From positions 434,001 through 498,000 of the forward strand of contig NZ_CP034086.1 in the NCBI RefSeq assembly GCF_003855495.1: a stretch of DNA of 64,000 nt, in the 5' to 3' direction. Position 1 is the first letter of the stretch. Each line of letters opens with the position of its first letter. This document shows, piece after piece, positions 36,685 to 52,684 of this stretch. Both the position numbers and the translations under genes were made by a program. This DNA comes from Methylocystis rosea (GTDB lineage: Bacteria; Pseudomonadota; Alphaproteobacteria; Rhizobiales; Beijerinckiaceae). The notes below the pieces were generated by a model. The model saw nothing but the letters and a program-made list of their open reading frames with translations. It made no database searches and was not told where the DNA came from.

Positions 36685-37710
36685 ATGAAAGCGCTGGTTC
36701 GATTGGGCTTCCTGATCGCTGTGATGGCCACAACATTCCTGTTGGCGGGATCATCCGCCGGGGCGGGAAGCGATCCGCTTCCGTCATGGAACGAAGCGCC
36801 GACGAAACATGCCATCGTCGAATTCATTCGAGCGACGACCGATCCGTCGAATACGAAATTCGTCCCGCCCGAGGAGCGCATCGCGGTCTTCGATCAGGAT
36901 GGCACGCTCTGGGCGTCCCATCCGATCTATCCGCAGTTGATGTATTGTCTGGATCGCCTGCCTGCCGTCGTAAAGGCAAGACCGGCGCTCGCGAAGATCG
37001 AACCCTTCAAGACAGCGCTCTCGCGCAACATGGAGGCGATATCGAAGCTTTCGACGAAGGACCTCATCAAGATCATGGCCGCGCCGCTGAGCGGCATGAG
37101 CATAGAGCGGTTCAGAGCCGATGCGGAGACATGGCTTGAGACAGCAAGACACCCGCGCTGGGGCCGCCGTTACACCGAGCTGACATATCTGCCGATGCTT
37201 GAGCTGATGAAACATCTACGCGCCAACGGCTATAAGACCTATATCGTCACCGGAGGCGGGCAGGATTTCGTGCGGGTCTACGCAGAGAAGACCTATGGCG
37301 TTCCGCCGGAGCAGGTTGTCGGAACTCTGGAGAGCGTGAGTTACCGCTATGACAAGCGCGGGCGTCCCGTTCTGATCGAGAGCGCCGAAACGCTGCTCAG
37401 CGATGTCGGCGCCGGCAAACCCGAGGCAATCCATTTGATGATTGGTCGTCGGCCGCGCGCCGCGTTCGGAAACTCAACGGGCGACCGGCAGATGCTCGAA
37501 TACACGACGTCCGGGGACGGCGCGCGGTTTGGCATGTTGGTTTTGCACGACGACGCCCAGCGCGAATACGCCTATGGTCCGGCGCTCGGCTTGCCTGACA
37601 CCAGAATTGGGACTTTTCCTCAGTCTTTGTATGACGAGGCGAAGCGGCAAGGATGGCTTGTCGCCAGCATGAAAAGCGATTGGAATCGGATGTGGGCTTT
37701 CGAACAATGA
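36685..37710 (+). CDS. Exported HAD-family phosphatase
   Basis: 341 residues. GGGAGG lies 4 nt before the ATG at 36685. A signal peptide (about 1-27) precedes a haloacid dehalogenase-type domain with motif I in VFDQDGTLW (about 67-75), motif II in YIVTGGGQDF (about 188), and the C-terminal acidic motif in GNSTGDRQM (about 266). Exported relatives dephosphorylate organic phosphates in the periplasm; the substrate is not deducible. Motif I reads D-Q-D rather than the common D-x-D-x-T, but D-Q-D-G-T does match that consensus, so activity is expected. It is convergent with the porin gene. Confidence 0.82.
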   Translation: MKALVRLGFLIAVMATTFLLAGSSAGAGSDPLPSWNEAPTKHAIVEFIRATTDPSNTKFVPPEERIAVFDQDGTLWASHPIYPQLMYCLDRLPAVVKARPALAKIEPFKTALSRNMEAISKLSTKDLIKIMAAPLSGMSIERFRADAETWLETARHPRWGRRYTELTYLPMLELMKHLRANGYKTYIVTGGGQDFVRVYAEKTYGVPPEQVVGTLESVSYRYDKRGRPVLIESAETLLSDVGAGKPEAIHLMIGRRPRAAFGNSTGDRQMLEYTTSGDGARFGMLVLHDDAQREYAYGPALGLPDTRIGTFPQSLYDEAKRQGWLVASMKSDWNRMWAFEQ

Positions 37711-37751
37711 AGCGTATGGGAGCAGCGCGCTTAAAGCCGTAGGATCGAACC

Positions 37752-39503
37752 CTAGAAGGGAAAGTAGCGGAAGCTCGTCAAGATGGTGTTTTCCGAGCCA
37801 CGTGGCGCGCCGCCGACCGCGTTGAAGCCGTTACGAATGATATGGGCGAATTGCACGCCGACCCTGATTTTGCCGGCCGGTCCCTCGTAGAGCGTGTGCC
37901 AGGCTCCGGTGGTGATTTCGCGCAGCGCGTGGGTCTGTCCGGAACAATTGAAAAGGGGATTGCCGAGCGCCGCAAGTGGAACGGCTGCCGCGACGCCCGG
38001 CGTAACCTGCGAAATGGAATTTTCCAGATTACAGCCGATATTGTTATAAAGCGGATTGCCGTATCCACCGGCGAAGATTGTGCCGTTGATGGCGGTGACC
38101 TGCGGATTCTTGCCGGCGATGTCGCCGCCCGCGAATGCAAAAACATCGGTTTGCGGCGTCGGATGCAGCGTTGCGCCGACGAGGAGGCTTCGTTGGTAGA
38201 GCGGCTGGAGCGCGCCGAAAGCCGTATAGGTCGCATCGGGAAGCTGACTCGATGCAAGGCGGCCGACGCCGCGCCCGATCATGCCCGACACTTGAAATTC
38301 CAGGAGCTTGGGAATGATTGGGATAATTGCGCCGGCGCCAACGCCGCCTACCCAAACTCGATGATTGCCGAAATAGACGCGCTCGGTCATCTCACGCGCC
38401 ACCCCGAACGCTTCCAGATGCACAGTACGGTCGCCGAGTGGCGCATCCCATGCGGCCTTGCCGACGAGATCGGGAAGTCGATTGAAGGAATAAGTGTCCA
38501 AGGTGTTGAGCGAGCCGCCATTCGTCGCCAGGGCGAGCAGGGCGGGCGCGGGGATTCCGAGATTGTTGGGAAGAAGCGTGGAGACGGGCCCGAATCCAGG
38601 GCCCGGCGCGGCGAAGGTGTTGGCCGAGCCTTCCGCGGCCAAGGCCAACCAAAATTGCTTTCCGAAATCCTTGTAAATGCGGATGCCAGGATTTCGATCC
38701 CAGACATAGCCGGGCATGTAATTGTGGTCGATCGTCGGCGGCTGCAACGACGTGTCAGGCCGAGTGCCCAGTGAATTCATCGTTACGAGCGACCAGGTCT
38801 GACCTGCCGTGAAATGCAGCCCATAATCGTCATTGTCGATGTTGGTGTAGGCTTGGCGAACGCGGAGATTGTACGAATTGCTCTGGTTCGCGTTCGCCGT
38901 CTGGGCCGCGCCGAGAAAGTCCGTTTCGAAATAGCCCTGGATATGCGTCGTGGGACTGAGATCGCCGCGCACGAGGAGAGCGGGGCGCGTCGCGCGGGCG
39001 CTGAAGTGAAACTCGTCCGTATGTCCGGCCGTCGCGAAGCCATAGGGAATGGCGTTGAAGGGCGTGGCGACGTCGGCGCCGACCCAGTGGTTGCGCCAGA
39101 CCGACTCGAGCGCCAGAAAGCCGCCGGGAATGATCTCCAGACCCTTGTAGACGAACCTATCTGGGATCCTTGGCATGGCGACGGCGGCGACCGGCGTCAG
39201 CGCCGTTTCCCTGACGTTCGCACTGCGGGCATTTACTGTTTCGGCCCGGCGACGCTCCTGCTCATCTCGGTCCTTTTTATCCATGCGGGCTTTAAGTTGC
39301 TTCACCTGACCAAGGAGCATTTGCAGCTGCTCCTTGTCCGTCATGGCCATGGCGTGATGTGGCGGCAATAGAGCCAGGACGCCAGCAGCCGTAAGCGAAA
39401 TTGCGGAACGCTTGACGTCTTTAAGTAAATTGATCCCCGCCTTTGCGCCGCTCCAGAAAGGCTCAGCTCGAAAAAAAACCTTGGCATTCTGGCGCGTCTG
39501 CAT
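37752..39503 (-). CDS. Outer-membrane porin-like beta-barrel protein
   Basis: 583 residues from the ATG at 39503 (AGAGGA about 8 nt upstream). After a long basic lead comes a hydrophobic signal region (about 38-54, ending AMA), then a coiled coil (about 62-85, LQMLLGQVKQLKARMDKKDR), then alternating aromatic strands typical of a barrel, ending in aromatic FRYFPF as outer-membrane proteins do. The coiled coil plus barrel resembles the OprO/P or DUF3138-like porins. It lies 166 nt after hyfI on the same strand, so it may be part of, or follow, the SulP-Hyf transcript, perhaps as its outer-membrane entry pore. Confidence 0.72.
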   Translation of the reverse strand: MQTRQNAKVFFRAEPFWSGAKAGINLLKDVKRSAISLTAAGVLALLPPHHAMAMTDKEQLQMLLGQVKQLKARMDKKDRDEQERRRAETVNARSANVRETALTPVAAVAMPRIPDRFVYKGLEIIPGGFLALESVWRNHWVGADVATPFNAIPYGFATAGHTDEFHFSARATRPALLVRGDLSPTTHIQGYFETDFLGAAQTANANQSNSYNLRVRQAYTNIDNDDYGLHFTAGQTWSLVTMNSLGTRPDTSLQPPTIDHNYMPGYVWDRNPGIRIYKDFGKQFWLALAAEGSANTFAAPGPGFGPVSTLLPNNLGIPAPALLALATNGGSLNTLDTYSFNRLPDLVGKAAWDAPLGDRTVHLEAFGVAREMTERVYFGNHRVWVGGVGAGAIIPIIPKLLEFQVSGMIGRGVGRLASSQLPDATYTAFGALQPLYQRSLLVGATLHPTPQTDVFAFAGGDIAGKNPQVTAINGTIFAGGYGNPLYNNIGCNLENSISQVTPGVAAAVPLAALGNPLFNCSGQTHALREITTGAWHTLYEGPAGKIRVGVQFAHIIRNGFNAVGGAPRGSENTILTSFRYFPF

Positions 39504-39669
39504 TGGTGCGTCCTCTACATTTCGCACGCTTGCGTTCTAGCCAAGTTTTTATGCGCAGGTTTTTCCCGAGTTTATCTCTGTACCCTCAAATATTGCTCGT
39601 GAGTTTCGCAAAAATGGCCGTCACCCTGTTTCAGGCGGCGGCCATCTTCAATACGCTCGCTGGCGTCGC

Positions 39670-40185
39670 TCAGCTCATCGTTTCAACGAAAGCGATCAGC
39701 CCTTTGAGCAGCGTCGTCGGATCAGGCGGACAGCCGCGAATATGGAGATCGACCGGGACGACATTCGCGACGGCGCCCACGCATGCGTAGCTCTCGCAAT
39801 AGACGCCGCCGTCAAAGGCGCAGTCGCCGACGGCGATCACCCATTTTGGATCCGGCGTCGCCGCATAGGTTCGCTCAAGCGCTTCGCGCATGTTTTTCGT
39901 CACCGGACCGGTGACGAGCAAGACGTCGGCATGGCGCGGCGACGCGACAAAACGCAGGCCGAATCTTTCGAGATCGTAATAGGCGTTGTTGAGCGCGTGG
40001 ATCTCCAATTCGCAGCCATTGCAGGACCCCGCGTCGACTTCGCGGATCGAAAGACTTCGGCCCAGTTTTTGGCGCGCGGTGCGCCCTAGCGTGTAGCCAA
40101 GTTCCGCGATCGACGTCGGATTCGGAATGGGGGCCTGTTCGGTCAGAGCGCGGCGGAGCAGGCCCTGAAGCAAGAATTTCTGCAT
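39670..40185 (-). CDS. hyfI: Hyf/NuoB-like iron-sulfur subunit (HyfI)
   Basis: 171 residues. It carries the ligands of the terminal [4Fe-4S] cluster (N2-like): SCNGCELEIHAL (cysteines about 54 and 57), GDCAFDGGVYC (about 119) and RGCPPDP (about 150). It is the electron-transfer partner of the HyfG large subunit, at the junction with the membrane arm. Last gene of the hyf-like set, 12 nt after hyfG. Confidence 0.88.
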   Translation of the reverse strand: MQKFLLQGLLRRALTEQAPIPNPTSIAELGYTLGRTARQKLGRSLSIREVDAGSCNGCELEIHALNNAYYDLERFGLRFVASPRHADVLLVTGPVTKNMREALERTYAATPDPKWVIAVGDCAFDGGVYCESYACVGAVANVVPVDLHIRGCPPDPTTLLKGLIAFVETMS

Positions 40186-40197
40186 CGCGCGCGTGTC

Positions 40198-41715
40198 CTA
40201 GAGATCATGCCCCGAGTAGGAACAGTTGAAGGATTTGTTGCAGAGGGGGAAGTCGGCGACGATGTTGTCCTTGATCGCCGCTTCGAGCAGCGGCCACTGG
40301 AACCAGGAGGGATCGCGCAAATGACAGCGCTGCACCACGCCGTCAGCGCGAATGCGCAGCCAGACAAAGATATCGCCGCGGAATCCTTCGACGAGCGCTG
40401 CGCCTTCGCGCGTCCAGTCTTCCGGCAGCGCCCAGGCGGCGATGATCGGTCCCTGCGGCATTTCGTCGAGGATCTGTCTGACGATTTTGAGCGAGGCTCT
40501 GATTTCGTCGAACCGGACCCAGACGCGCGCATCGACGTCGCCTTCCTTCGAAGCGCCGATCTCGAACGTCAGCTGCGGATAGGGGGCGTAACCGATCGCC
40601 TTGCGCGCGTCGAACTCCCGGCCCGAGGCGCGTCCGACATAGCCCCCGCACGCATATTGCTTGGCGAGCTCTTCGCTGACGACGCCGGTTCCGACGGTCC
40701 GATCCTGCAGCGACGTCGTGTCGCCAAAGAGCGCGATGAACCGGGGAGTCATCAGCTCGATCCACTCGATCAGCGTGAAGAGCGCCTTGACGTTCTCTCG
40801 CTCCAGATCGACGACGACGCCTCCCGGCGCGATGCGATCCATCATCAGGCGGTGTCCGAAGCAAGTTGCCGCTGCTCTCAGAATGCGTTCGCGGACGATG
40901 CCGCACTGCGCATGCATCAATGCGAAGGCCGCGTCGTTGCAGATCGCGCCGATATCGCCGAAATGATTGGCGAGGCGTTCCAGTTCGGCCATCAGCGCGC
41001 GCAGATATATCGCGCGCGGCGGAACATTGACGTCGAACGCCGCCTCGACCGCCTGCGAAAAGGCGAGGCCATAGGCGACAGTGCTGTCGCCGGAAATGCG
41101 CGCCGCGAGACGCGCGGCGCGCTCGATCGAGGCGCCCGCCATCAGTTGATCGACGCCCTTGTGCACGAAGCCAAACCGCTCCTCAAGCCGCACGACGGTT
41201 TCGCCATTGGCCGAGAAGCGGAAGTGACCCGGCTCGATAATGCCGGCGTGCACGGGTCCGACCGGTATCTGGTGGAGCGGTTCGCCTTCCGCGGGAAGGA
41301 ACATGTAGCTGTCACTGGCGGAGTCGATCTTCTCGGGGTCGTTGCAAGGATGACGCACGCCCCAGCGGCCATGATCGAGCCAGGGCCGCTCGTCGGGCGC
41401 GTTTTCGGCCCTCAGCCCATAAAGATCGCGGATCGCGCGCTCGAGCCTCGACGCCGGCGGATGCAATCGCCCGACGGATGGAAAGGAGCCTTCAGGGCAC
41501 TCCAATGTGATGATGCGCAGGCGCGGCTCCCGCTCTTCGAGCACCGCCATGTGAACGCTCGCAGGTTCGCCCCACAGGCTGAGGAGCTCGCGATCGCCTC
41601 TCGCAAGACTTTCGGCGAAAGCGAGCCAACCAGCTCTGTCGACGATCTCACGCGGCCAGGGCAGACACGTCGGCGGCGACGGCTGGGCCTCTATCTGTTT
41701 GCTGGCGAAGTTCAT
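40198..41715 (-). CDS. hyfG: Hyf/NuoCD-like large subunit lacking the Ni-site cysteines (HyfG)
   Basis: 505 residues. A NuoC-like N-terminal domain (about 1-150) is fused to a NuoD/hydrogenase-large-subunit domain opening with HQIPVGPVHAGIIEPGHFRF. In true [NiFe]-hydrogenases the active site is held by two CxxC pairs. Here the first position reads RISGDSTVAYGLAF with no cysteines, and the C-terminus reads FPLCNKSFNCSYSGHDL, where the two cysteines are CX5C rather than CX2C. So it should not be a hydrogenase. Related proteins occur in Hyf-like and Mbx/Nuo-like respiratory complexes. The start at 41715 has a GGATG-rich leader, and the larger upstream frame lies in hyfF. Confidence 0.85.
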   Translation of the reverse strand: MNFASKQIEAQPSPPTCLPWPREIVDRAGWLAFAESLARGDRELLSLWGEPASVHMAVLEEREPRLRIITLECPEGSFPSVGRLHPPASRLERAIRDLYGLRAENAPDERPWLDHGRWGVRHPCNDPEKIDSASDSYMFLPAEGEPLHQIPVGPVHAGIIEPGHFRFSANGETVVRLEERFGFVHKGVDQLMAGASIERAARLAARISGDSTVAYGLAFSQAVEAAFDVNVPPRAIYLRALMAELERLANHFGDIGAICNDAAFALMHAQCGIVRERILRAAATCFGHRLMMDRIAPGGVVVDLERENVKALFTLIEWIELMTPRFIALFGDTTSLQDRTVGTGVVSEELAKQYACGGYVGRASGREFDARKAIGYAPYPQLTFEIGASKEGDVDARVWVRFDEIRASLKIVRQILDEMPQGPIIAAWALPEDWTREGAALVEGFRGDIFVWLRIRADGVVQRCHLRDPSWFQWPLLEAAIKDNIVADFPLCNKSFNCSYSGHDL

Positions 41716-41732
41716 CTTTTCATCCTTTGAAC

Positions 41733-43181
41733 TCAACCCAAGAGCCGCGCGACGTTCTGGAACCAGGTTACGACGTGAGAGGGAAGGTAGATTCCCGCCA
41801 GCAGCACAAGTGAGAGATGCGCGTAGACAGGCCACATCGAAGCCTTCACCTCGCCTTGGTCGCGGCTCGGCTCGCCGAACGCCATTCCGGTGAGTCGCAA
41901 CAGCAACGCGCCAAAGGCCAGCAGGAGGCCGAAGACCAGTGGAATAGCGAGGAGGGGCTGGCGCGCGAAGGTCGAACTCACGACGAGAAATTCGCTCATG
42001 AAGATGCCAAGCGGCGGCAGACCGATGATTGCGACGACGCCAGCGACGAGGGACCAGCCGAGCGCCGGTTGGCTTTGCGTCAGCCCTCTGATGTCGGCGA
42101 TTCTCTGCGTGCCCTTGACCTGCGCGATGTGGCCGACCGAGAAGAAGATCGCGGACTTCGTCAGGCTGTGCATCGTCATGTGCAGCAGACCGGCGAAGTT
42201 GGCGAGCGGTCCGCCCATGCCGAAGGCGAAGGCGATAATGCCCATGTGCTCGATGGAGGAGTAGGCGAACAGCCGCTTGATGTCGCCACGGCGGTAAAGC
42301 ATGAAGGCCGCCATGATGAGAGATGCAAGGCCGAGCGTGATCATCAGCGGGCCCGGCGTAATCGCCGCCGCATTCGCCGTCAGCAGCATCTTGAACCGCA
42401 GCACCGCGTAAAGCGCGACGTTGAGAAGGAGGCCGGACAAGACCGCCGAGATCGGCGTCGGGCCTTCCGCATGCGCATCCGGAAGCCAGGCGTGCATCGG
42501 CGCGAGGCCGACCTTGGTGCCGTAGCCGAGCATCAGAAACACGAAGGCGACGTTGAGCATCCGGGGATTGAACTGCGGCGCTTGCTGCATCAGCGTCGTC
42601 CAGACCATGGCGTCGTAGCCCTGTCCCAGCACCGGCTCGGCCGCCATGTAAATGAGGATCGTGCCAAAGAGCGCCAGCGCGATCCCGACGCTGCCGAGGA
42701 TGAAATATTTCCAAGCGGCCTCGAGGGCGTGCGGCGTGCGGTACATGCCGACCATCAACACGGTTGTCAGGGTCGCGACTTCGACCGCGACCCACATGAG
42801 GCCGATGTTGCTGGCGAGCAGCGCCAGATTCATGGCGCACATCAACGACTGATACATCGCGTGATAGAAGCGGACGTTTCTCGTGGTCAGCCGGCCAGTT
42901 TCGATCTCATGGTCGATATAGCTCGCGCTATAGACGCTCGTGGTGAAGCCGATGAAGGTCGAGAGCACAATAAAGACGATGTTGAGGTCGTCGACGAAGA
43001 GATAGCCGCCACGTTCGGGTTCGACGACGAGAAGCACAAGCGCGAAGAGAAACGTCGCGCCGGAGGCGCAGAGGTTGATGATCGCCGAGCGTCGGTAGGC
43101 GGGTTCGAGCGCCACGGCGATGGCCGCGACGGCGGGAATGCCGACAAGCGCGTTCGAGACCAGGAAGAGATCGGAACTCAT
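41733..43181 (-). CDS. hyfF: Hydrogenase-4-like / NuoL-M-N antiporter-like subunit (HyfF)
   Basis: 482 residues, about 13-14 membrane spans. The proton-channel motifs of complex I antiporter subunits are visible: VAVEVATLTTVLM (the TM5 glutamate), the lysine in LGYGTKVGLAPMHAWLPDAH, and LTKSAIFFSVGHIAQ in the second half-channel. It should move protons across the membrane when the redox arm turns over. It overlaps hyfE by 4 nt and is 17 nt ahead of hyfG. Confidence 0.88.
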   Translation of the reverse strand: MSSDLFLVSNALVGIPAVAAIAVALEPAYRRSAIINLCASGATFLFALVLLVVEPERGGYLFVDDLNIVFIVLSTFIGFTTSVYSASYIDHEIETGRLTTRNVRFYHAMYQSLMCAMNLALLASNIGLMWVAVEVATLTTVLMVGMYRTPHALEAAWKYFILGSVGIALALFGTILIYMAAEPVLGQGYDAMVWTTLMQQAPQFNPRMLNVAFVFLMLGYGTKVGLAPMHAWLPDAHAEGPTPISAVLSGLLLNVALYAVLRFKMLLTANAAAITPGPLMITLGLASLIMAAFMLYRRGDIKRLFAYSSIEHMGIIAFAFGMGGPLANFAGLLHMTMHSLTKSAIFFSVGHIAQVKGTQRIADIRGLTQSQPALGWSLVAGVVAIIGLPPLGIFMSEFLVVSSTFARQPLLAIPLVFGLLLAFGALLLRLTGMAFGEPSRDQGEVKASMWPVYAHLSLVLLAGIYLPSHVVTWFQNVARLLG

Positions 43182-43840
43182 GAACGTCCTCCGCGCACGC
43201 GATCGAGTTCAGAAAGGTCGACGTTGTCGAATCGCTCGCGGATGCGAAACAGGAAGATGCCGATCACGATGAAGGCGATGAGAATGGAAAAGGCGACGCT
43301 GATCTCGACGACGAGCGGCATGCCGTTCGCCCCTGCCGCCGCCAGCACCAGACCATTTTCCAGCGACATGAAGCCGATAATCTGGCTCACGACGTTACGC
43401 CGCGTCACCATCATCAACAGCCCCAGCAGCACGATCGCCAGGGCGAATGCGATGTCCTCGCGCGACAGCGGATCGGCGGAGGCGGTCGCCGGCAGCATGA
43501 CGACGAGCGACAGCGCCACAAGAAATATGCCGATGAGCATGGTTATGCCGACGCCGCCAACGACCTCCACGGTGCGGTGGATGCGCAAGCGCTTGATAAT
43601 GCGGCGGAGGCTGAACGGAATGATCAGCGCCTTGAAGATCGCCGCGATCGCGGCCGTGAGATAGAGGTGATGTGCATCCTGGTAATAGGCCTGCCAGGCG
43701 ACCGACAGCGACAGAATGACGGCGTGGAGCGTGTAGATATTGATCAGCCCCGACAGTCTGTCCTGATACAGCAGCATGAAGCTCGTCAGTAGGAGCGCGC
43801 CCGCCAGGACATGGGCGATGTCGATTGTCAGAAGCTCCAT
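43178..43840 (-). CDS. hyfE: Hydrogenase-4-like membrane subunit (HyfE)
   Basis: 220 residues with six or so membrane spans, including a NuoK-like part (IGFMSLENGLVLAA near residue 140, with the conserved glutamate). HyfE subunits sit in the membrane arm next to HyfF. It overlaps hyfF by 4 nt and shares one base with the hyfC stop (TGATG), indicating tight translational coupling. Confidence 0.87.
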   Translation of the reverse strand: MELLTIDIAHVLAGALLLTSFMLLYQDRLSGLINIYTLHAVILSLSVAWQAYYQDAHHLYLTAAIAAIFKALIIPFSLRRIIKRLRIHRTVEVVGGVGITMLIGIFLVALSLVVMLPATASADPLSREDIAFALAIVLLGLLMMVTRRNVVSQIIGFMSLENGLVLAAAGANGMPLVVEISVAFSILIAFIVIGIFLFRIRERFDNVDLSELDRVRGGRS

Positions 43841-44793
43841 CAGAGGCTCCGTGTCACGAAAACGAGCAGCGTCGCGAGGAGGCCGAGCATCAGCCCCGCG
43901 CCGAGAAAGTCCGGCACGCGGAAGATGCGCATCTTGGCCGTGGATGTCTCAAATAGCGCGAGCGCGCCGCCGCCGATCGCCAGCTTCAGGACGTAAGCGC
44001 CAAGGCCGATCATCATCGCCTCCGCGCCCGCATCGTGCGACGCGAGTCCAACGGGGAAAAAGACGCAGGCGATGAGCGAGAGATAAAGGAGCAGTTTGAG
44101 CGCGGAGGCGAGTTCAATGAGCGCGAGATAGCGCCCGGAATACTCAAGAACCATCGCCTCATGCACCATCGTGAGCTCGAGATGCGTCGCCGGATTGTCG
44201 ACGGGAATCCGTCCATTCTCCGCGATGGCGACGATGAGGAGCGCGACGAGCGCCATCCCGACCGAGGCGCGCAATTCCAGATTTCCGGCCATATAGGCCG
44301 CAATTTCAGAGAGCTGCGTCGTTCCGGCGACGAAGGAGACGGTGAAGACGATCATCATCATCGCCGGCTCCGCGAGCGAGCCGAACATCGCCTCGCGGCT
44401 CGAGCCGATGCCGCCAAAACTCGTTCCAATGTCCATGCCCGCGAGAGCAAGGAAGAAACGGGCGCTGCCGAGCAGAGCGATGATGGCGATGAGATCGGCC
44501 GACCAGCTGAACGTCAGTCCCGTGGCGAATGTCGGCACAAGCGATGCAGCGACCCAGATCATCGCAAAGATCAGATAGGGCGCCCAGCGGTACAGCCACG
44601 ATGCGTTTTCTGCGAGGACGACCTCTTTGCGCAGCAGCCGAATGAGATCGAGCCAGGGCTGAATGATCGGCGGCCCTCTGCGACGCAAGAGGCGCGCCTT
44701 CAGCTTTCGAACAAAGCCGATAAGCAGCGGCGCCAGCGCGAGCACCAAAAGCATTTGGAGGCTCTGGGCCATAAGGTTGAAAAGAAGCGTCAT
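43840..44793 (-). CDS. hyfC: Hydrogenase-4-like / NuoH-like subunit (HyfC)
   Basis: 317 residues, eight membrane spans. NuoH/HycD-type anchor joining the peripheral redox arm to the membrane arm. RRRGPPIIQPWLDLIRLL near residues 38-55 and ENGRIPVDNPATHLELTMVHEAM near 210-232 (quoted in part: RIPVDNPATHLELTM) are the diagnostic loops. It overlaps hyfB by 4 nt and hyfE by 1 nt. Confidence 0.9.
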   Translation of the reverse strand: MTLLFNLMAQSLQMLLVLALAPLLIGFVRKLKARLLRRRGPPIIQPWLDLIRLLRKEVVLAENASWLYRWAPYLIFAMIWVAASLVPTFATGLTFSWSADLIAIIALLGSARFFLALAGMDIGTSFGGIGSSREAMFGSLAEPAMMMIVFTVSFVAGTTQLSEIAAYMAGNLELRASVGMALVALLIVAIAENGRIPVDNPATHLELTMVHEAMVLEYSGRYLALIELASALKLLLYLSLIACVFFPVGLASHDAGAEAMMIGLGAYVLKLAIGGGALALFETSTAKMRIFRVPDFLGAGLMLGLLATLLVFVTRSL

Positions 44794-46787
44794 ATCGCCA
44801 CCAGGACCAGGAGGAAGACGAGCGCCGCGAAAACCAGCGCGAGATATTCCTGGATCGTCAGGAGACTGAGGATGTTTAGCCCGGTGGCGCAGGACTCAAC
44901 CGCCCGCGTGAGGGGCGCATAGAGATAGTCGAAGATTCGATCCTTGATGTCGACGCTCAGGCGCGCGGTCCGCGTATCGCCAGGCGCCGGCATGTCGAGG
45001 CGCTCCCGCACCGAAAAGGCGATGACGCCAAGGGTGCGTCGGATCGGCTGCGCGAAGCTGCTGCCTGTGTATTGCGTCATGGGGCTAGCTTCGATGTGGC
45101 CGCAGTCCCAGGCCGGCGCGCGCCGCGACCGCGCCGTGCCGAATTTGTGGATGACCCATCTCGCCGAATAGGCGGAGAAAAGAATGAACAGGAAGACCAG
45201 AAGCCCATTGTAGGAGCTGCGGCTTTCGGCGACGGGCGCGATCGAGAGCCAAGAGAGTTCAGCCTGCGTCGGCATGCGGCCGCCGACAAAATCTTTCGCC
45301 ACGGGCGAGATCGTGTCGATGAGGAGGCTCGGCAGCAGACCGGCCGTGAGGCACAGCGTCAGCAAAACCGCCATGGTCGCGAGCGACCAGCGATCCGGGT
45401 CGTGCGCCTTGCGCGCCGCTTCGCTGCGGGGGCGCCCCAGAAAAGCGACGCCATAGGCGCGGATGTAACAGCCGGCGCCGAGCGCCGCGCTCAGCGCCAG
45501 CGCCACGCCGACCGCCGGAACGAGGAGCTTGACGGTCCATTGCGGCAGCGACGGGCTCAGCAGGATCGCCTGAAACACCAGCCATTCCGAGACGAAGCCG
45601 TTCAGCGGCGGCAGGGCGGCGATGGCGACGCACCCGCCGAGAAAAAGGAACGCCGTTTTCGGCATGGAGTGAATGAGCCCGCCGAGACGCTCGATGCTTC
45701 TTTCGCCGCTCGCGTTCAGCACCGCGCCGGCGCCAAAGAACAGCAGGCTCTTGAACAGCGAATGATTGAAAACGTGAAAGAGCGCGGCGGTGAAGGCGAG
45801 GGCGGCCGGCAGCGCCATGCCATTGGCCTTGAACGCCAAGGCAAGTCCGAGCGCGATGAAAATGACGCCAATGTTTTCGATGGTGCTGTAGGCGAGCAGC
45901 TTCTTCAGATCGCTCTGTATCGTCGCGAAGAGAACGCCGATGAGGGCGCTCGCTGCGCCAAAGGTCATCGGCTCGACCGACCACCAGAAGGCCGGCGGCC
46001 CGAGCAAATCGAACACGACGCGAATGAAGCCGTAGACGGCGACCTTCGTCATCACGCCGCTCATCAGCGCCGAGACGTGGCTCGGCGCCGCCGGATGGGC
46101 GAGCGGCAGCCAGATATGCAAGGGCGCGAGTCCGGCTTTGGACCCCATGCCGACGATCGCGAGGGCGAGGACAAGGCCCGACGTCCATCCCATCTTGGTC
46201 GACTCGCGAATCGAGGCGAAGTCATAGGCGCCGCCGACGCCTCCGAGAACGCCAAACGCCATCAACAGCGCAAAACCGCCGAAGCTCGCCATCAACAAAT
46301 AGACGAAGCCGGCGTGCCTGTTCTCCTCCTCATGATGATGTGTCAGCACGAGCGCCCATGAAGTAAGCGACATGAACTCCCAAGCGACGAGAAAGGTGAA
46401 GGCGTCGTCAGCCAGCACGACGAGATTCATGCCAGCGAGAAAAGCGGGATAGAACGGCAGCACGCGCATCGGCTCTTTCTCATGCGCGCCATAGCCGATC
46501 GCATAGGCGCTCGCCGCCGCGGCGCCCAGATTGACGACGGCGAGAAAAAAGGCGGTCAGGACGTCGATGCGAACATGCATGCCGATCCACGGCAGTCCGA
46601 GCGGCAAAACCGTGGAAACGACATGAGCGCCCCTTGGCATGACCGCTGCGAGAAAGATGACGCAGCAGAGGCCGACGCAAAGGCGGTAGACGTTACGGCT
46701 AACGTCATGGTTCCGCCTGTCGACGATGGCGTAGACGCTGACGGCGAGCAGGGCGCTGACACAGGTCAGCGCCAGGTAGAGCGGCAT
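44790..46787 (-). CDS. hyfB: Hydrogenase-4-like / NuoL-like antiporter subunit (HyfB)
   Basis: 665 residues, about 16 membrane spans. It has the antiporter-like proton-path motifs VAWEFMSLTSWALVL (TM5 glutamate), GMGSKAGLAPLHIWLPLAHP (TM7 lysine region) and FNHSLFKSLLFFGAG in the second half. The ATG at 46787 has AAGG 9 nt upstream; a GTG at 46796 is an alternative. First of the hyf genes, 51-60 nt after the SulP gene on the same strand, so co-transcription is likely. Confidence 0.88.
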   Translation of the reverse strand: MPLYLALTCVSALLAVSVYAIVDRRNHDVSRNVYRLCVGLCCVIFLAAVMPRGAHVVSTVLPLGLPWIGMHVRIDVLTAFFLAVVNLGAAAASAYAIGYGAHEKEPMRVLPFYPAFLAGMNLVVLADDAFTFLVAWEFMSLTSWALVLTHHHEEENRHAGFVYLLMASFGGFALLMAFGVLGGVGGAYDFASIRESTKMGWTSGLVLALAIVGMGSKAGLAPLHIWLPLAHPAAPSHVSALMSGVMTKVAVYGFIRVVFDLLGPPAFWWSVEPMTFGAASALIGVLFATIQSDLKKLLAYSTIENIGVIFIALGLALAFKANGMALPAALAFTAALFHVFNHSLFKSLLFFGAGAVLNASGERSIERLGGLIHSMPKTAFLFLGGCVAIAALPPLNGFVSEWLVFQAILLSPSLPQWTVKLLVPAVGVALALSAALGAGCYIRAYGVAFLGRPRSEAARKAHDPDRWSLATMAVLLTLCLTAGLLPSLLIDTISPVAKDFVGGRMPTQAELSWLSIAPVAESRSSYNGLLVFLFILFSAYSARWVIHKFGTARSRRAPAWDCGHIEASPMTQYTGSSFAQPIRRTLGVIAFSVRERLDMPAPGDTRTARLSVDIKDRIFDYLYAPLTRAVESCATGLNILSLLTIQEYLALVFAALVFLLVLVAI

Positions 46788-46847
46788 ACATGTCACCTTC
46801 GAATCGACGCGACAGTCGTCGGTCGCGCCTTGCGGGAACTTTACGGG

Positions 46848-48638
46848 CTAGACGCTGCGCTTGCGCGGGGCGAGGGGATGCTTTGACGTCGCAACGTGTT
46901 GATCCAGTCCGCAAATCTCTGCGTGGCCGCCGTTAGCTTCATAGTCCTCGCAAAAGTGATGCAGGTTCTCCATCACCGTGTGATCGACGCACCAGGACTC
47001 CGAGAGGTCGAAGATCACCGTCTTGCCCTTTGGGAGCTTGGCGAGATCGCCCTTGAGCGCGAGGTAATTGGCGAAAAACGCGGCGCCGCCGATCTTGACC
47101 TGATAGACGCCGGGTTCGCTCTCCACGACGTCGCGACGCAACTTGAAGACCTGCGCCCAATTGACGCTGCGCCAGAAGTGGAACAGGAACTCGGCGGCGA
47201 TGCCGATGGCGACGCCGATCAAGAGATCGGTCGCCAGCACGCCGATGATGGTGATCACGAAAACGGTGAGCTGGTCCCAGCCGATCGCCAGCGTCTTCTT
47301 GAACTCGAGCGGCGAGGCAAGTCGGTAACCGGTGAACACCAGCAGCGCCGCGAGCGAGGCCAGCGGGATCTCATGAATGACCCTCGGGAAAAGCGCGACG
47401 AAGATCAGCAGGAACAACCCGTGGAAGAAATTCGCCCACCCCGTGCGCGCCCCATTATTCACATTGGCGGAGCTGCGCACGATTTCTGCGATCATCGGCA
47501 GACCGCCAATCAGGCCGCAGATGATGTTGCCGAAGCCGACGGCCGCGACGTCGCGGTTGAGATCCGAGGTGCGCTTATAGGGATCGAGCTTATCGACCGC
47601 CGCCGCGCTGAGCAGGCTCTCCAGGCTGCCAACGAGACAGATGGCGAAGACCTGCTGCCAGAACATGCTGGAGCCGATCAGCGAGAAGTCCGGGAAGGCG
47701 AAGCCGGACAGGAAGTTCTGCGGAATCGAGACCAGAAATTTCGGACCGATCGTGAATTCGTGATGCGGCAGAAACGGCGTGTCCGGCAGGAAGAGATAGA
47801 TATGTTCATCGTCGAGATCGTAATATTGCGCGAGAGCCATGCCGATGATCACGACGACGAGCGGCGCGGGGATCATCTTTAGTCGCCGACTCTTCACCAG
47901 CGACCAGGCGATCAGGATCAAGAGCCCAAGGCCGCCGATGATGGCGACTTCCGGATTCATGTCGCGAAGGCTGGCGGGGATGGCGCCGATCGTCTCAAAC
48001 AGCGTCTGCGCATCCGGCTTTACGCCGAGCATGACGTGAATCTGCTTGGCCATAATGATGATGCCGATCGCCGCCAACATGCCATGCACGGCCGAGGACG
48101 GAAAAAAGGCGCTCATCTTGCCGGCTTTCATGAGGCCCATCAGCATCTGAATGACGCTGGCGCATACAATCGCCGCCAAGGTGTAGTGGTAGCCGGCTTT
48201 GGCGTCGCCGCCGCCGAGCGCCTGCACCGAGTCCAGAATGACCACGATGAGGCCCGCCGCCGGGCCGGTGATGGTGACGAAAGATCCGTTAATGCGCGAC
48301 ACGAGGAGGCCGCCAACCACGGCGGTGATGATGCCCGCCTGCGGCGGAAAGCCCGAGGCCATCGAAATGCCGAGGCAGAGCGGCAGCGCAATAAGAAAGA
48401 CCAGAAAGCCGGACAGAATGTCGGCGCGCCAATTTTCGGCCAATCCGGCGAGGCCGGTCTTCGGCGTGAACCTTGTTGGAATCGTCGCTGCGAAATTTGA
48501 CCGATTTTCATCCGCGGCGGGTCTGCCGAGATCCTTGCCCAGCCATGCCTGCGACGACGAACTGGGGCGCCGAGCGGCGCTCGCCTCTGCCGCGCCCGCT
48601 TCGAGGTCGTGGGTGACAGCCTGAGCCTTGCTTTTCAT
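46848..48638 (-). CDS. SulP family anion transporter with STAS domain
   Basis: 596 residues. After an 80-residue cytoplasmic lead, about 14 spans follow with the SulP signatures DILSGFLVFLIALPLCLGI and GGLPMIAEIVRSSANVNNGA. The C-terminal STAS domain (about 470-580) carries VIFDLSESWCVDHTVME. SulP proteins carry sulfate, bicarbonate or other anions, BicA being the Na+/bicarbonate member. The cargo cannot be read off, but a link to hyf genes directly downstream suggests a role tied to ion motive force. The ATG at 48638 has AAGGA 6-7 nt upstream; a TTG at 48653 is less likely. Confidence 0.88.
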   Translation of the reverse strand: MKSKAQAVTHDLEAGAAEASAARRPSSSSQAWLGKDLGRPAADENRSNFAATIPTRFTPKTGLAGLAENWRADILSGFLVFLIALPLCLGISMASGFPPQAGIITAVVGGLLVSRINGSFVTITGPAAGLIVVILDSVQALGGGDAKAGYHYTLAAIVCASVIQMLMGLMKAGKMSAFFPSSAVHGMLAAIGIIIMAKQIHVMLGVKPDAQTLFETIGAIPASLRDMNPEVAIIGGLGLLILIAWSLVKSRRLKMIPAPLVVVIIGMALAQYYDLDDEHIYLFLPDTPFLPHHEFTIGPKFLVSIPQNFLSGFAFPDFSLIGSSMFWQQVFAICLVGSLESLLSAAAVDKLDPYKRTSDLNRDVAAVGFGNIICGLIGGLPMIAEIVRSSANVNNGARTGWANFFHGLFLLIFVALFPRVIHEIPLASLAALLVFTGYRLASPLEFKKTLAIGWDQLTVFVITIIGVLATDLLIGVAIGIAAEFLFHFWRSVNWAQVFKLRRDVVESEPGVYQVKIGGAAFFANYLALKGDLAKLPKGKTVIFDLSESWCVDHTVMENLHHFCEDYEANGGHAEICGLDQHVATSKHPLAPRKRSV

Positions 48639-48880
48639 CTGTTGTCCTTGCAATTGCGCTCAGCCGAAACCTTGGCGCCGACCGGTGAGCGCGCCGCAAC
48701 TTAGGACACACCAGTGGCTGTGGTGTTTCTCCAGTTTTTCAGGCCACAGAGATTGTTTCTGATTCTTTTCCCAAATCCGACGAGATCGGACCAAAGCTAC
48801 GGAAAACGTTGAGAAGCGCAATCTTTTTTGTGATGGAAACACTCTAGAAACACTGCATTATTACGTTCCGCCGAGCTCCA
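48639..48880. promoter_or_regulatory. Divergent promoter region between SulP-hyf and the two-component system
   Basis: Two direct copies of GAAACACT (48836-48843 and 48847-48854, 11 nt apart start to start) lie 26 nt before the response-regulator start. An inverted near-copy, GGTGTTTC (48722-48729), lies about 84 nt upstream of the SulP start. Direct repeats one helical turn apart are what OmpR-type regulators bind. The segment is AT-rich (ATCTTTTTTGTGATGG, TTCTGATTCTTTTCCC), fitting two promoters. Binding by the adjacent regulator is inference. Confidence 0.45.
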
Positions 48881-49627
48881 ATGAAAGCGATTGCGCCTCC
48901 TTTGACCCCTCCCATTTCAATTCTGATCGTCGAGGATGACGCCGAAATCGGCGAGTTCATCTCGCTCTATCTCGCGGCGCACGATATTCAGGCTAAGGTG
49001 GCCGCAAACGCCCAGGCAATGGACGCTGCGTTCAGCGCCGGAGCCTATGACCTGCTGATCCTCGACCTTAATCTTCCCGGCGAAGACGGCTTATCGATCT
49101 GCCGGCGGGTGCGATCCGAGAGACGCATCCCCATAATCATACTGACGGCGCAGTCGGAGGACATCGACAAAATATTGGGTCTGGAGCTCGGGGCCGACGA
49201 TTACATCGTCAAGCCTTTCAACTCGCGCGAGCTGCTGGCGCGTATCCGCGCGGTTTTGAGGCGAACTGAAACCCCGAACGCGAACGCCGTCGACGGGCGC
49301 GCCTTACGGCAAGCGTATCTTTTCTCGGGCTGGCGCGTCGATGTGCTCGCTCGAGAGGTTGTCGCGCCGTGCGGCATAAAGGTGGCCATGACCGGCGCAG
49401 AATTCGATCTGCTGCATGCCTTGTGCGAAAATCCCAACCGGGTGTTGACGCGCGAGCAACTGATTAACATGACGCATGGCCCGACGACCGGGCCCTTTGA
49501 GCGGAGCATTGACGTGCTGATCAGCCGGCTTCGACAGAAGATAGAAGCGGATCCAAAAAAGCCCGCGTTCATCCAGACGGTTCGCTCCGAAGGCTATATT
49601 TTCTCCACTCACGTGGCGCGCGCATGA
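48881..49627 (+). CDS. OmpR/PhoB-family response regulator
   Basis: 248 residues. Receiver domain with the acidic pair in VEDDAE (about 18-22), phospho-acceptor Asp in LLILDLNLPGEDG (about 64), Thr in ILTAQSE and Lys in YIVKPFNSRELL. A winged-helix DNA-binding domain (about 150-245) ends in QTVRSEGYIFS. It overlaps the sensor kinase gene by 4 nt. Divergent from the SulP-hyf genes, which makes them its best candidate targets. Confidence 0.92.
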   Translation: MKAIAPPLTPPISILIVEDDAEIGEFISLYLAAHDIQAKVAANAQAMDAAFSAGAYDLLILDLNLPGEDGLSICRRVRSERRIPIIILTAQSEDIDKILGLELGADDYIVKPFNSRELLARIRAVLRRTETPNANAVDGRALRQAYLFSGWRVDVLAREVVAPCGIKVAMTGAEFDLLHALCENPNRVLTREQLINMTHGPTTGPFERSIDVLISRLRQKIEADPKKPAFIQTVRSEGYIFSTHVARA

Positions 49628-51060
49628 ACTCAACTCGCGTTCCCTGGCGTTTCCGGATCAACAAGCTGGCCGTGCAAATCACGCTGCTCATGCTTGTGTC
49701 CATCGTCGCATTCCAAACTATCGTGATCGGCATGTTCCATGTGTTCGGCCGGCGGCACATTGTCGATCAGGGCGATTTCATAGCGAGCATAATCCTCGCT
49801 CTGGACGTCGCGCCGAATGCAGAGAGAGCGAATATCGTTTCAGAGCTTTCTCTTGCCGTTCCCTACGCCAATATCGAGATCCAGGAGACTCGCCCAGCAG
49901 CGGCGGACGCCTCGTTGGGAAGCGACGTTGCCTTCGATAACGAGATCCGTCACATCGATTCGCTTTTGTGGAAAGGCGCGGACGTGTTCGAGGTCGCCAG
50001 CTCGGCGCCAGGGGACTACGGCGTTCTCGCCGTCGAATTGCGCAAGGGCGGCTACGCGACCATCTCGATCGCGCAGCACCAAAAGTCGCCAGGCTCAATC
50101 TGGCGTTGGCTCTGGCAGCACGCGGAGGACGAACCGATCATCGTCACTCCCGGAGCGCGAACGGCGCTATCTTTCATCATATTCACCGCGATCTTCGTCT
50201 TCTGGGCGCTGAACGCGATCATGGCGCCGCTGCAGCGACTCGCGAAATACGCCGAGCAGATTCCGAATGACATCGATACGAAGACGCCACTTCCCGAACG
50301 AGGTCCCCACGAGGTGCGCGAATTGACTCGCTCGCTCAATCGTATGCAGGCGCGCATCAGCAAGATGATCGCCGCGCGCGCCCATGTGCTTGCGGCGGTG
50401 AGTCATGACTTGCGAACAATTATCACGCGCCTGAAGCTGAAAACTGAGTTCGTGCCAGATCAAAGCCTTCAGCAGCGGATGATGCGCGACGTCGATCTGA
50501 TGGACGCAATGCTGTTCAAGAATCTGCAGTATTTGCGCGCTGAAGGAGACGATAAGTCCGACTGTTCCCTGGTCGATCTCGACAGCGTTCTGCAAACGGT
50601 CGCCGACGAGTTCTGCGACCTTGGGCATCATGTGACCTACCACGGCGGCGGACGCCAAATGATTTTCGGATCGCTCCCCGACATGCAGCGCATTTTTACC
50701 AATCTCGTCGAGAACGCGACGCATCACGCGAAGACAGTGGACGTGCTTCTGACCGATCGGCCTGAAGGACTGATACAGGTCGACGTCATCGACGACGGGC
50801 CAGGAATGTCAGCGGAAAGCAAGCAGACCGCATTCGAGCCTTTCGTTCGCGGTCAGCCCGGACGAACCCTTGACCAACACAGCGGATTTGGATTGGGGCT
50901 ATCGATCGTGCGCTCGCTCGTTGAGAACCACGGCGGATCTGTGTCTCTGCTCGACCGCGAACCCCACGGACTGATCGCGCGCGTGTTCCTGCCGCGCGCA
51001 TCGGAGGGGGACGAGAGGCTGGCTCCCAGCGATTCAAAAGCAGCGCAGGCGTTGCACTGA
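49624..51060 (+). CDS. Membrane sensor histidine kinase
   Basis: 478 residues. Two membrane spans (about 18-40 and 178-198) enclose a periplasmic sensor of about 135 residues, then a HAMP linker (ending about 250), the phospho-acceptor helix with His near 262 (AAVSHDLRTIITRL) and an ATPase domain: N-box NLVENATHHAK, G1 VIDDGPGM, G2 GFGLGLSIV. The H-box reads SHDLRT, as in EnvZ-type kinases. Partner of the overlapping response regulator. The signal is unknown; anion or pH sensing would suit the neighbours. Confidence 0.9.
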   Translation: MNSTRVPWRFRINKLAVQITLLMLVSIVAFQTIVIGMFHVFGRRHIVDQGDFIASIILALDVAPNAERANIVSELSLAVPYANIEIQETRPAAADASLGSDVAFDNEIRHIDSLLWKGADVFEVASSAPGDYGVLAVELRKGGYATISIAQHQKSPGSIWRWLWQHAEDEPIIVTPGARTALSFIIFTAIFVFWALNAIMAPLQRLAKYAEQIPNDIDTKTPLPERGPHEVRELTRSLNRMQARISKMIAARAHVLAAVSHDLRTIITRLKLKTEFVPDQSLQQRMMRDVDLMDAMLFKNLQYLRAEGDDKSDCSLVDLDSVLQTVADEFCDLGHHVTYHGGGRQMIFGSLPDMQRIFTNLVENATHHAKTVDVLLTDRPEGLIQVDVIDDGPGMSAESKQTAFEPFVRGQPGRTLDQHSGFGLGLSIVRSLVENHGGSVSLLDREPHGLIARVFLPRASEGDERLAPSDSKAAQALH

Positions 51061-51066
51061 GAAGGC

Positions 51067-51483
51067 TCAGGCGGGCGCAAGCAGCAGGCTTGTCTCGCTT
51101 CGAGCGATCCCCTCGATCATCCTCACGCCCGACAGCACACGGTCGAATTCCTCGAGATTGGCGCACTCGATTTCCGCGATGAGGTCAAAAGGCCCGTTGG
51201 TGCTGTAAAGCGTGTGGATCTGCGGGAGTCCGCGCAGCGCCTGGGCGACGCGACGGGAATTCTTGCCGGAGACTTCGACCATCATGATCGCCCGGATGCG
51301 ATCGGACGCGGAAGGATTTTTCAGCCGAACCGTAAAGCCCAGGATCACGTCGGACGCGATCAGCTTGTCGAGTCGGTTCTGGACCGTCCCGCGCGAGACG
51401 CCCAGCGCCTTGGCGAGCTGGGACAAGGAGGCGCGCGCGTCCGTCCGCAGCAGCGCGATCAGTCGGTGGTCGAGGTCGTCCAT
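51067..51483 (-). CDS. Lrp/AsnC family transcriptional regulator
   Basis: 138 residues. N-terminal winged helix (LDHRLIALLRTDARASLSQLAKALGVSR, shown in part as LSQLAKALGVSRGTVQ) and a C-terminal RAM/AsnC effector domain with a VEVSGKNSRRVAQAL strand-helix. The ATG at 51483 has AGAGGCG before it. It is divergent from the ornithine cyclodeaminase and amidinotransferase-fold genes, and Lrp-type proteins commonly regulate such an adjacent amino-acid gene, so arginine, ornithine or proline may be its effector. Confidence 0.9.
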   Translation of the reverse strand: MDDLDHRLIALLRTDARASLSQLAKALGVSRGTVQNRLDKLIASDVILGFTVRLKNPSASDRIRAIMMVEVSGKNSRRVAQALRGLPQIHTLYSTNGPFDLIAEIECANLEEFDRVLSGVRMIEGIARSETSLLLAPA

Positions 51484-51520
51484 GGCCCGCGCCTCTGTCG
51501 AAACGGTCAATATCTATGAC

Positions 51521-51560
51521 CGAAATGACAAATTTCGAGCCGTTTCGCCAATTTATGGCG
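51521..51560. promoter_or_regulatory. Two dyads between the Lrp gene and the ornithine cyclodeaminase
   Basis: CGAAAT-gacaa-ATTTCG (51521-51537) is a perfect 6-bp dyad, and CGCCA-attta-TGGCG (51546-51560) a perfect 5-bp dyad just downstream. Both lie in the 133-nt divergent gap and are AT-rich at their centres, as Lrp/AsnC operators are. They are the natural candidates for autoregulation and for control of the rightward operon. Confidence 0.5.
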
Positions 51561-51616
51561 ATTTTGATTAGCGGGCCCGCGTTCTAGTCTCCCCACATGG
51601 ATCGATGGGAGAAGGC

Positions 51617-52684
51617 ATGGTGACGTTTCTGAGCGCGCGAGATATCGCCCGCATCGTTGGAGAAGTGGGCGCGCGACGCTTTTGGTTGTTGCTAGTCGAC
51701 TATCTGCGTCACGATTTTATGCGCTGGGACGCATTCGAGAAGTCGCCGCGTTACGCGAGCCATTCGCCGCGCGGCGTCATTGAACTGATGCCGACGAGCG
51801 ACGGCGAGGCTTTCGCCTTTAAATACGTCAACGGTCATCCCGGCAACACGTACTTCAATCTGCAGACCGTCGTCGCCTTCGGCGCGCTCGCCGACGTCGA
51901 AACCGGCTATCCGACCCTCATCGCCGACATGACGCTCGCCACCGCCTTCCGAACCGGCGCGACCTCGGCGCTGGCGGCGGCGCATCTCGCGCGAACCGAC
52001 AGCAAGACGATGGCGCTGATCGGCCTTGGCGCTCAATCGGAGTTTCAGGCGTGCGCGTTTCACGCCGTTCTTGGCGTTGACCGGCTTCGCGTCTTCGATG
52101 TCGATCCTGACGCCGTCGAGAAGTTCGAGCGCAACATGGCTGACTACGGCCTGACGATCGTTCGGTGCGTTGAAGCGCGCATCGCCGCATCAGGCGCGGA
52201 CATCGTCACGACGATCACGGCGGATAAGAAATTCGCCACGATACTGGCCGACGACATGGTTGTGCCTGGAACCCATATCAACGCGGTCGGCGGCGATTGC
52301 CCGGGCAAGACCGAGCTTCCGCGCGAACTGCTGCTGCGTTCCGAGATCTTCGTCGAATATGCGCCGCAGACGCGCAGCGAGGGCGAAATTCAGCAACTCG
52401 GCCCCGAGCATCCGGTGACGGAACTGCGGGAGATTCTGGCTGGTGATCGACCAGGGCGCACCTCCAAAGACGCGATCACCATCTTCGACAGCGTCGGTTT
52501 CGCCATCGAGGATTTTTCGGTGTTGCGCCTGTTGCGCGACCTTGCGCGGGAGACGGGCGTCGGCCGCAACATCGAGCTGATCGCTGGGCCTGCAGACCCG
52601 AAGGATCTGTTCTCACTGCTGCATCCGCTCGACGCGGAGCAGGAAAACGTCGCAGCTCTCGTAAGGACGGAACAGCCCGCATGA
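51617..52684 (+). CDS. Ornithine cyclodeaminase (mu-crystallin family)
   Basis: 355 residues. NAD-dependent conversion of L-ornithine to proline and ammonia. FAFKYVNGHPGNT is the substrate-side block, TALAAAHLAR-type helix and IGLGAQSEFQACAF the dinucleotide-binding segment (about 140-153), and VGGDCPGKTEL near 225 contains the catalytic aspartate region. The ATG at 51617 has GGGAG 5 nt upstream; another at 51605 precedes it. The stop overlaps the next gene by 4 nt. Larger than the Pseudomonas-type family, it resembles the Ocd forms near amidinotransferases. Confidence 0.88.
   Translation: MVTFLSARDIARIVGEVGARRFWLLLVDYLRHDFMRWDAFEKSPRYASHSPRGVIELMPTSDGEAFAFKYVNGHPGNTYFNLQTVVAFGALADVETGYPTLIADMTLATAFRTGATSALAAAHLARTDSKTMALIGLGAQSEFQACAFHAVLGVDRLRVFDVDPDAVEKFERNMADYGLTIVRCVEARIAASGADIVTTITADKKFATILADDMVVPGTHINAVGGDCPGKTELPRELLLRSEIFVEYAPQTRSEGEIQQLGPEHPVTELREILAGDRPGRTSKDAITIFDSVGFAIEDFSVLRLLRDLARETGVGRNIELIAGPADPKDLFSLLHPLDAEQENVAALVRTEQPA

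Follow-up and report, generated by a model that had tools for sequence, protein, structure and literature searches.

Positions 434001-498000 of contig C1 in the 4.21 Mb genome of Methylocystis rosea (the window, 64,000 nucleotides) contain a gene row for a SulP anion transporter and for HyqBCEFGI, a complex-I-like membrane complex of six subunits that belongs to the Hyq family. The complex is known but its setting is new: it is a sulP-linked variant of Hyq. We propose, with slightly more doubt than belief, that Hyq is a Ni-free proton-translocating complex, that SulP is a bicarbonate carrier and that the two jointly supply inorganic carbon; we infer the carbon role from gene neighbours and from the type of SulP. 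SulP would move bicarbonate, and a reaction at the HyfG/HyfI interface, in a pocket of Arg, Ser, Asp, Asn, Lys and Tyr residues replacing the NiFe site, would be coupled to proton movement via HyfB, HyfF and HyfC. Together SulP and Hyq would sustain cytoplasmic CO2/bicarbonate for this serine-cycle methanotroph, an organism that needs such a supply and whose phosphoenolpyruvate carboxylase uses bicarbonate. If SulP does carry bicarbonate, the simplest joint task would be to raise or balance its cytoplasmic level.

The seven genes lie on the minus strand and are tightly spaced, as a preliminary description of this DNA had stated and as gene calls and family profile matches confirm. sulP (46848..48653) starts with a TTG at 48653, has an ATG at 48638 and ends at 46848; it encodes a SulP/SLC26-type anion transporter of 601 amino acids (aa) with a STAS-like C-terminus (PF00916, 202.9 bits; STAS domain 21.5 bits, slightly below its cut-off). 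It is followed by hyfB/hyqB (44790..46796; NuoL-type antiporter-like subunit, 668 aa; NF005086, 825 bits, above cut-off), hyfC/hyqC (43840..44793; NuoH-type subunit, 317 aa; PF00146, 131 bits) and hyfE/hyqE (43178..43840; small membrane subunit, 220 aa), the last assigned by NF008556 (91 bits, below the cut-off of 136) together with its position and conservation across related loci. The row continues with hyfF/hyqF (41733..43181; antiporter-like subunit, 482 aa; NF005043, 839 bits, above cut-off), hyfG/hyqG (40198..41715; large subunit of the NuoCD/HycE type, 505 aa, in which the Ni ligands are missing; PF00346 and PF00329, with a NiFeSe_Hases match below cut-off) and hyfI/hyqI (39670..40185; NuoB-type subunit of 171 aa carrying four cluster cysteines; PF01058, 116 bits). 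From sulP to hyfI the intergenic spacings are +51, -4, -1, -4, +17 and +12 nucleotides (nt).

The Hyq 'endo-hydrogenase' of Azorhizobium caulinodans, hyqRBCEFGI in the papers on it (PMC2650096, PMC2930871, PMC3357923), shares its six structural genes and their order, B-C-E-F-G-I, with the window row and likewise lacks hyfA and hyfD; the window row also lacks hyfH. In the same texts, HyqG has 504 residues, no CxxC pairs and cysteines at 258, 491 and 497 (505 residues and Cys259, 492 and 498 in the window HyfG), and the cluster cysteines of HyqI are published as 55, 58, 112 and 152 (C55, C58, C122 and C152 in the window HyfI). The two complexes were likened by published gene order, lengths and cysteine numbers; because the gene order, a 505-residue HyfG without CxxC and near-identical cysteine numbers all agree, membership of the Hyq family is secure. 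The earlier suggestion of an undescribed system is not supported: these six genes encode a complex of the published Hyq family, and the absence of CxxC motifs from HyqG is already in print (PMC3357923). In the words of the 2012 paper, a NiFe site in HyqG 'seems uncertain, if not unlikely' (PMC3357923). Unlike the Azorhizobium cluster, the window row has sulP ahead of hyfB and a divergent two-component system, has neither hyqR nor any helix-turn-helix (HTH) gene between sulP and hyfB (a trait of regulation rather than of the complex), and shows no NifA/sigma54 box upstream of sulP. Immediately ahead of hyfB, other lineages have either an XRE-cupin-like gene or a small HTH gene (loci L132-L138, L087, L088, L090, L092, L093, L111 and L118), the small one being perhaps the published hyqR.

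The sulP-hyf synteny is not limited to one strain and recurs in another class. SulP lies directly upstream in 15 of the 18 Methylocystis-genus loci with context (window included), and the three without it form a separate branch of the HyfG tree. Outside Methylocystis, SulP lies upstream on the same strand at 7 of 108 loci, all betaproteobacterial (L194, L202, L206, L212, L218, L222 and L224). The search that yielded these seven had a betaproteobacterial query at its centre, so their share is not an unbiased rate. At L194 sulP is about 12 nt ahead of hyfB, and at L206 and L218 one gene stands between sulP and hyq. A locus was scored as SulP-negative only if more than 2.2 kb of sequence preceded hyfB; L152 and L224 were scored as positive, the latter having just a 152-aa piece of SulP and 0.7 kb of upstream sequence. 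On a quick HyfG tree of 152 rows the linkage state needs at least five changes. The SulPs of Methylocystis share 21-24% identity with those of the linked betaproteobacteria, and the two sets fall on opposite sides of the SulP tree, where the betaproteobacterial ones fall into two branches mixed with unlinked SulPs. The chance of at least four such linkages is roughly 1e-8 to 2e-6, an estimate computed after the pattern was seen, with 4,000 genes per genome and 133 SulP matches (fragments counted) in 80 genomes as its assumptions. At L205 the SulP gene is next to a Mo-oxidoreductase row and on the opposite strand; it was left out of the linked count. At L212 (1896-4496) the SulP frame continues into a universal-stress-protein-like region. 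No paper joining SulP and Hyq was found, as judged by titles and abstracts, subscription papers being outside the scope.

Moderate, indirect evidence points to inorganic-carbon work by Hyq. The window SulP groups with SulPs paired with carbonic anhydrase (CA) in a background of 20 regions hand-picked with SulP and beta-CA neighbour results in view (L205 was left out of the beta-CA check). On its side of the SulP tree, 7 of the 10 distinct hyq-unlinked SulPs adjoin a beta-CA gene (both other host copies on C1, three of genome G010 and one each of G208 and G805) and three do not (one each of G455, G284 and G010), compared with 0 of 13 checked on the other side. The two other host SulP genes, at C1:827903-829698 and C1:2490821-2492541, are each directly beside their beta-CA gene. 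On this hand-picked background the window SulP groups with mostly beta-CA-adjoining SulPs, reminiscent of the can-sulP pairs for which PMC6458275 predicts bicarbonate uptake; unlike those pairs, the window sulP has no CA beside it, and Hyq stands in that place.

Carbon genes also occur in or beside other hyq rows. L206 and G361 have gamma-CA/CcmM-like proteins in their rows (130 and 125 bits, below the equivalog cut-offs); in G361 a STAS fragment, an SLC13-like carrier and the gamma-CA-like gene precede hyfB, with a whole SulP further up on the opposite strand. L194 encodes a CsoSCA-like protein (24.9 bits in Pfam against a cut-off of 21.5; 37 in NCBIfam, far below 241), L174 has DabB-DabA 1.5 kb after hyq with opposite-strand open reading frames between, and at L225 a RubisCO gene follows hyq by 0.3 kb. 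In published accounts, the hyf genes of Acidithiobacillus ferrooxidans (AFE2149-54) and cbbM (AFE_2155) are numbered consecutively, and a hyf cluster of A. caldus adjoins a beta-CA; the hyf genes of both species are presumed to be Hyq. Genes for the neighbour surveys were called with a crude finder; coverage was 91 of 95 listed upstream proteins and 100 and 56 hand-picked downstream proteins, and each survey lists its 25 commonest families. Of 398 Pseudomonadota genomes drawn evenly, the host among them, 76 match HyfG at E 1e-35; in 63 the match is at least 41% identical (Hyq) and in 13 it is 27-30% identical (distant, HycE-like). RubisCO was found in 37 of the 63 Hyq genomes versus 58 of the 335 others; a match counted if its E was below 1e-100 or if it lay in family f72, and 18 of 113 were dropped as RubisCO-like or partial. 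The genome lists behind this count and behind the count of genomes with neither nifH nor hypD were transcribed by hand. The CO2/bicarbonate link raised in the preliminary description is supported as a possibility.

Several observations weigh against a joint carbon supply. The window SulP scores 118 bits against the BicA model NF050096, far below the cut-off of 880, and could carry sulfate or another anion. Each carbon gene adjoins hyq at one or a few of 153 loci (DabA, RubisCO and the CsoSCA-like gene at one each). An even draw of 80 genomes, many of them draft contigs, gave a SulP within 10 kb of hyfG only in its two Methylocystis genomes and no beta-CA within that distance, and beta-CA was rejected as a constant Hyq neighbour. 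RubisCO is absent from the host genome; its tally comes partly from the single family f72, outside which 14 of 32 Hyq genomes have it, and with 26 of the 63 Hyq genomes lacking it, RubisCO was likewise rejected as a constant partner. Most Hyq operons seen outside Methylocystis have no adjoining SulP, and a coupling between SulP and Hyq is correspondingly a matter of interpretation.

HyfG was aligned with Escherichia coli HycE. RISGDSTVAY falls under RVCGICGFAH and NKSFNCSYSG under IGSLDPCYSC; the four Ni-ligand places are Ser208, Ser211, Ser499 and Gly502, and Cys498 is off by one residue. Together with family conservation this upholds the early observation that HyfG lacks the Ni-binding CxxC pairs. 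The CX5C pair pointed out at the same time is present here (C492 and C498) but in fewer than half of the family: C259, C492 and C498, the numerical counterparts of three cysteines termed conserved in the 2012 Azorhizobium paper, occur in 70, 62 and 63 of 154 family sequences. R206, D210, F489 and P490 are invariant, and D488, N493, K494, S495, N497, Y500 and D504 are kept in 151-153 of the 154. At position 208, 138 sequences have Ser, 9 have Ala and 7 have Cys. Judged by this conservation, the former metal site is replaced by another constrained site, a conserved pocket.

Among solved structures HyfG is closest, by sequence and by fold, to formate hydrogenlyase/hydrogenase-4. HycE of formate hydrogenlyase is the best sequence match (166 bits), followed by membrane-bound hydrogenase and complex I, and a search with the predicted fold (mean predicted local distance difference test score 84, weak stretch 136-186) returned HycE 7z0s_E first and E. 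coli NuoCD next. The window complex differs from formate hydrogenlyase/hydrogenase-4 in lacking Ni ligands and ferredoxin-type subunits. A missing ferredoxin subunit gene had been noted before, and no CxxCxxCxxxC motif occurs in any frame of window 36500-52000; a hidden ferredoxin subunit was rejected, since just 16 of 134 loci have the motif nearby, with no constant gene. With respiratory complex I (NuoCD, NuoB, NuoH, NuoL/M/N) the complex shares the core fold, the four N2-type cluster cysteines and the antiporter-like subunits; it differs in having six subunits only and, in the alignment, Gly209 at the position of what we take to be the quinone tyrosine. Conserved charged residues of HyfB (E140, K220, K298, K349 and E404) and HyfF (E134, K223, K302 and K342) would fit proton transfer, if the role we assume for such Glu and Lys residues in complex I holds. 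The energy-converting hydrogenase-related (Ehr) complexes, which we take to be group-4-like, would resemble Hyq in lacking Ni ligands; literature searches brought up no relevant paper on them.

The HyfI cluster cysteines C55, C58, C122 and C152 are Cys in 145, 145, 145 and 143 of 145 sequences, in line with the earlier assignment of N2-type cluster ligands. Such near-invariant FeS cysteines indicate electron transfer, which counts against our proposal and is the strongest point for its main rival, that Hyq is a proton-pumping oxidoreductase. In that reading a soluble donor (formate dehydrogenase, ferredoxin or some other carrier) would feed electrons via the HyfI cluster to quinone or to a protein, while SulP would only use the proton gradient or move sulfate and have no link to carbon. 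The complex I-like predicted fold of HyfG fits this reading, as does a formate role proposed in print for the Acidithiobacillus hyf genes. Against it stand the lack of a ferredoxin-type subunit or constant redox neighbour, the finding that the commonest neighbour families, among the 25 listed per survey, are not redox enzymes, and, if the tyrosine has the role we assume, Gly209. We regard an oxidoreductase as a serious but rather unlikely alternative.

Less likely again is a stronger form of the carbon proposal, in which Hyq would be a third complex-I-derived inorganic-carbon machine beside NDH-1MS and DAB, with the new HyfG site handling CO2/bicarbonate in a reaction coupled to the proton gradient and served by SulP or SLC13 carriers. 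The candidate site residues would be Arg206, Asp210, Asn493, Lys494, Ser495, Asn497, Tyr500 and Asp504 and, mostly, Ser208. In DAB and the cyanobacterial NDH-1MS vectorial carbonic anhydrases, as is proposed for Hyq, antiporter-like membrane subunits are joined to inorganic-carbon handling (PMC13144422). Unlike DAB, the row has no DabA (PF10070) among 10 scanned window proteins; the Cup proteins of NDH-1MS were not searched by name. CO2 chemistry in Hyq, compared with these systems, is a conjecture.

It is improbable, in our view, that Hyq is instead the published H2-active endo-hydrogenase, recycling nitrogenase H2 through a non-NiFe active site. Published accounts do favour this over a carbon role in Azorhizobium, where a delta-hyq mutant evolves about tenfold more H2 in N2-fixing cultures and grows more slowly on N2, and where hyq is NifA-dependent; Rhodocista, reportedly hyq-positive without hup/hyp, recycles H2 (data not presented in that paper). 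The host itself carries two hypD genes and two full nifH genes, so that for this strain alone the argument against a NiFe enzyme rests on the absent ligands. The nifH copies (C1:3422701-3423522 and C1:3450243-3451064) have equal scores and lie 27 kb apart. Matches to BchX (418 bits against a cut-off of 331) and BchL (437 bits against 345) lie at C1 ~3.475 and 3.510 Mb (L266:245-1429 and L267:381-1259), and from these the host methanotroph may make bacteriochlorophyll.

Across the family the picture is different. nifH above cut-off is commoner with Hyq (11 of 63 genomes versus 3 of 56 hand-picked controls), yet usually absent: counting any match it is found in 12 (one split over two hits) and missing from 51. 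hypD is found in 23 Hyq genomes and missing from 40, compared with its presence in 10 of the 13 genomes with distant HycE-like matches. Neither gene is found in 39 of the 63, including 17 of the 37 with a completeness of 98% or more, which goes against the 2010 statement (PMC2930871) that hyq is generally absent from non-diazotrophs. NifA plus sigma54 boxes upstream of Hyq are in no excess (5 of 130 loci versus 19 of 650 shuffles) and absent from the window, and nif control was rejected as a general Hyq trait. HydDB classes the A. ferrooxidans subunit as a non-hydrogenase. There is good evidence that contradicts the hydrogenase label as a general one for Hyq.

The least probable alternative, that sulP and hyq are unrelated genes incidentally sharing one promoter, draws on the 101 of 108 other loci and three Methylocystis loci without SulP upstream and on a 78% identical SulP paralogue away from hyq in G010, but sits poorly with the tight same-strand spacing kept across Methylocystis and with the repetition of the linkage in betaproteobacteria with other SulP branches.

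Divergent from the row on the plus strand are genes for an OmpR-type response regulator (48881..49627; OmpR is the closest NCBIfam model, 233.6 bits, below the cut-off of 331) and an adjoining EnvZ-like sensor histidine kinase (49624..51060; closest model EnvZ, 169.5 bits, below the cut-off of 415). The regulator occupies the same divergent position in 10 of the related Methylocystis loci as listed and is likely the regulator of the sulP-hyq row; the two-component system would then probably control the row in place of HyqR/NifA. Downstream of hyfI, at 37752-39527 on the minus strand, lies a gene for a porin-looking protein of 591 aa with no Pfam or NCBIfam match, also found behind hyfI in a few Methylocystis genomes.

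Hyq is present in 32 of 39 genomes of the host genus, with a 54-residue fragment in one further genome. Among the best 80 loci, record names include Gallionella, Thiobacillus, Thiomonas, Sulfuritalea, Paraburkholderia, Rhodoferax, Accumulibacter, Thiorhodococcus, Mariprofundus, Nitrospirae and Acidobacteriaceae. One Methylocystis genome (G007) has a second, probably decayed locus (L143, 8457-10814) with hyfG, hyfI and scraps of hyfF and no match to hyfB, C or E. A Burkholderiales metagenome-assembled genome has two complete tandem Hyq gene sets (L167, 5005-19528), and the upstream parts of L133 and L137 have two consecutive hyfB-like genes ahead of hyfC.

What is new here is the sulP-hyq linkage, the rows with carbon genes, the CA-paired SulP clade, the frequent absence of hypD and nifH, and the pocket at the Ni site. 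Relatives of HyfG bear hydrogenase names in the public records of methanotrophs, iron oxidizers and rhizobia-like genomes, and the lack of a NiFe maturation gene and of nitrogenase in many owners would correct this annotation of H2 metabolism. With anion-carrier and carbon genes repeatedly beside it, this widespread orphan relative of complex I gains a function that can be tested.

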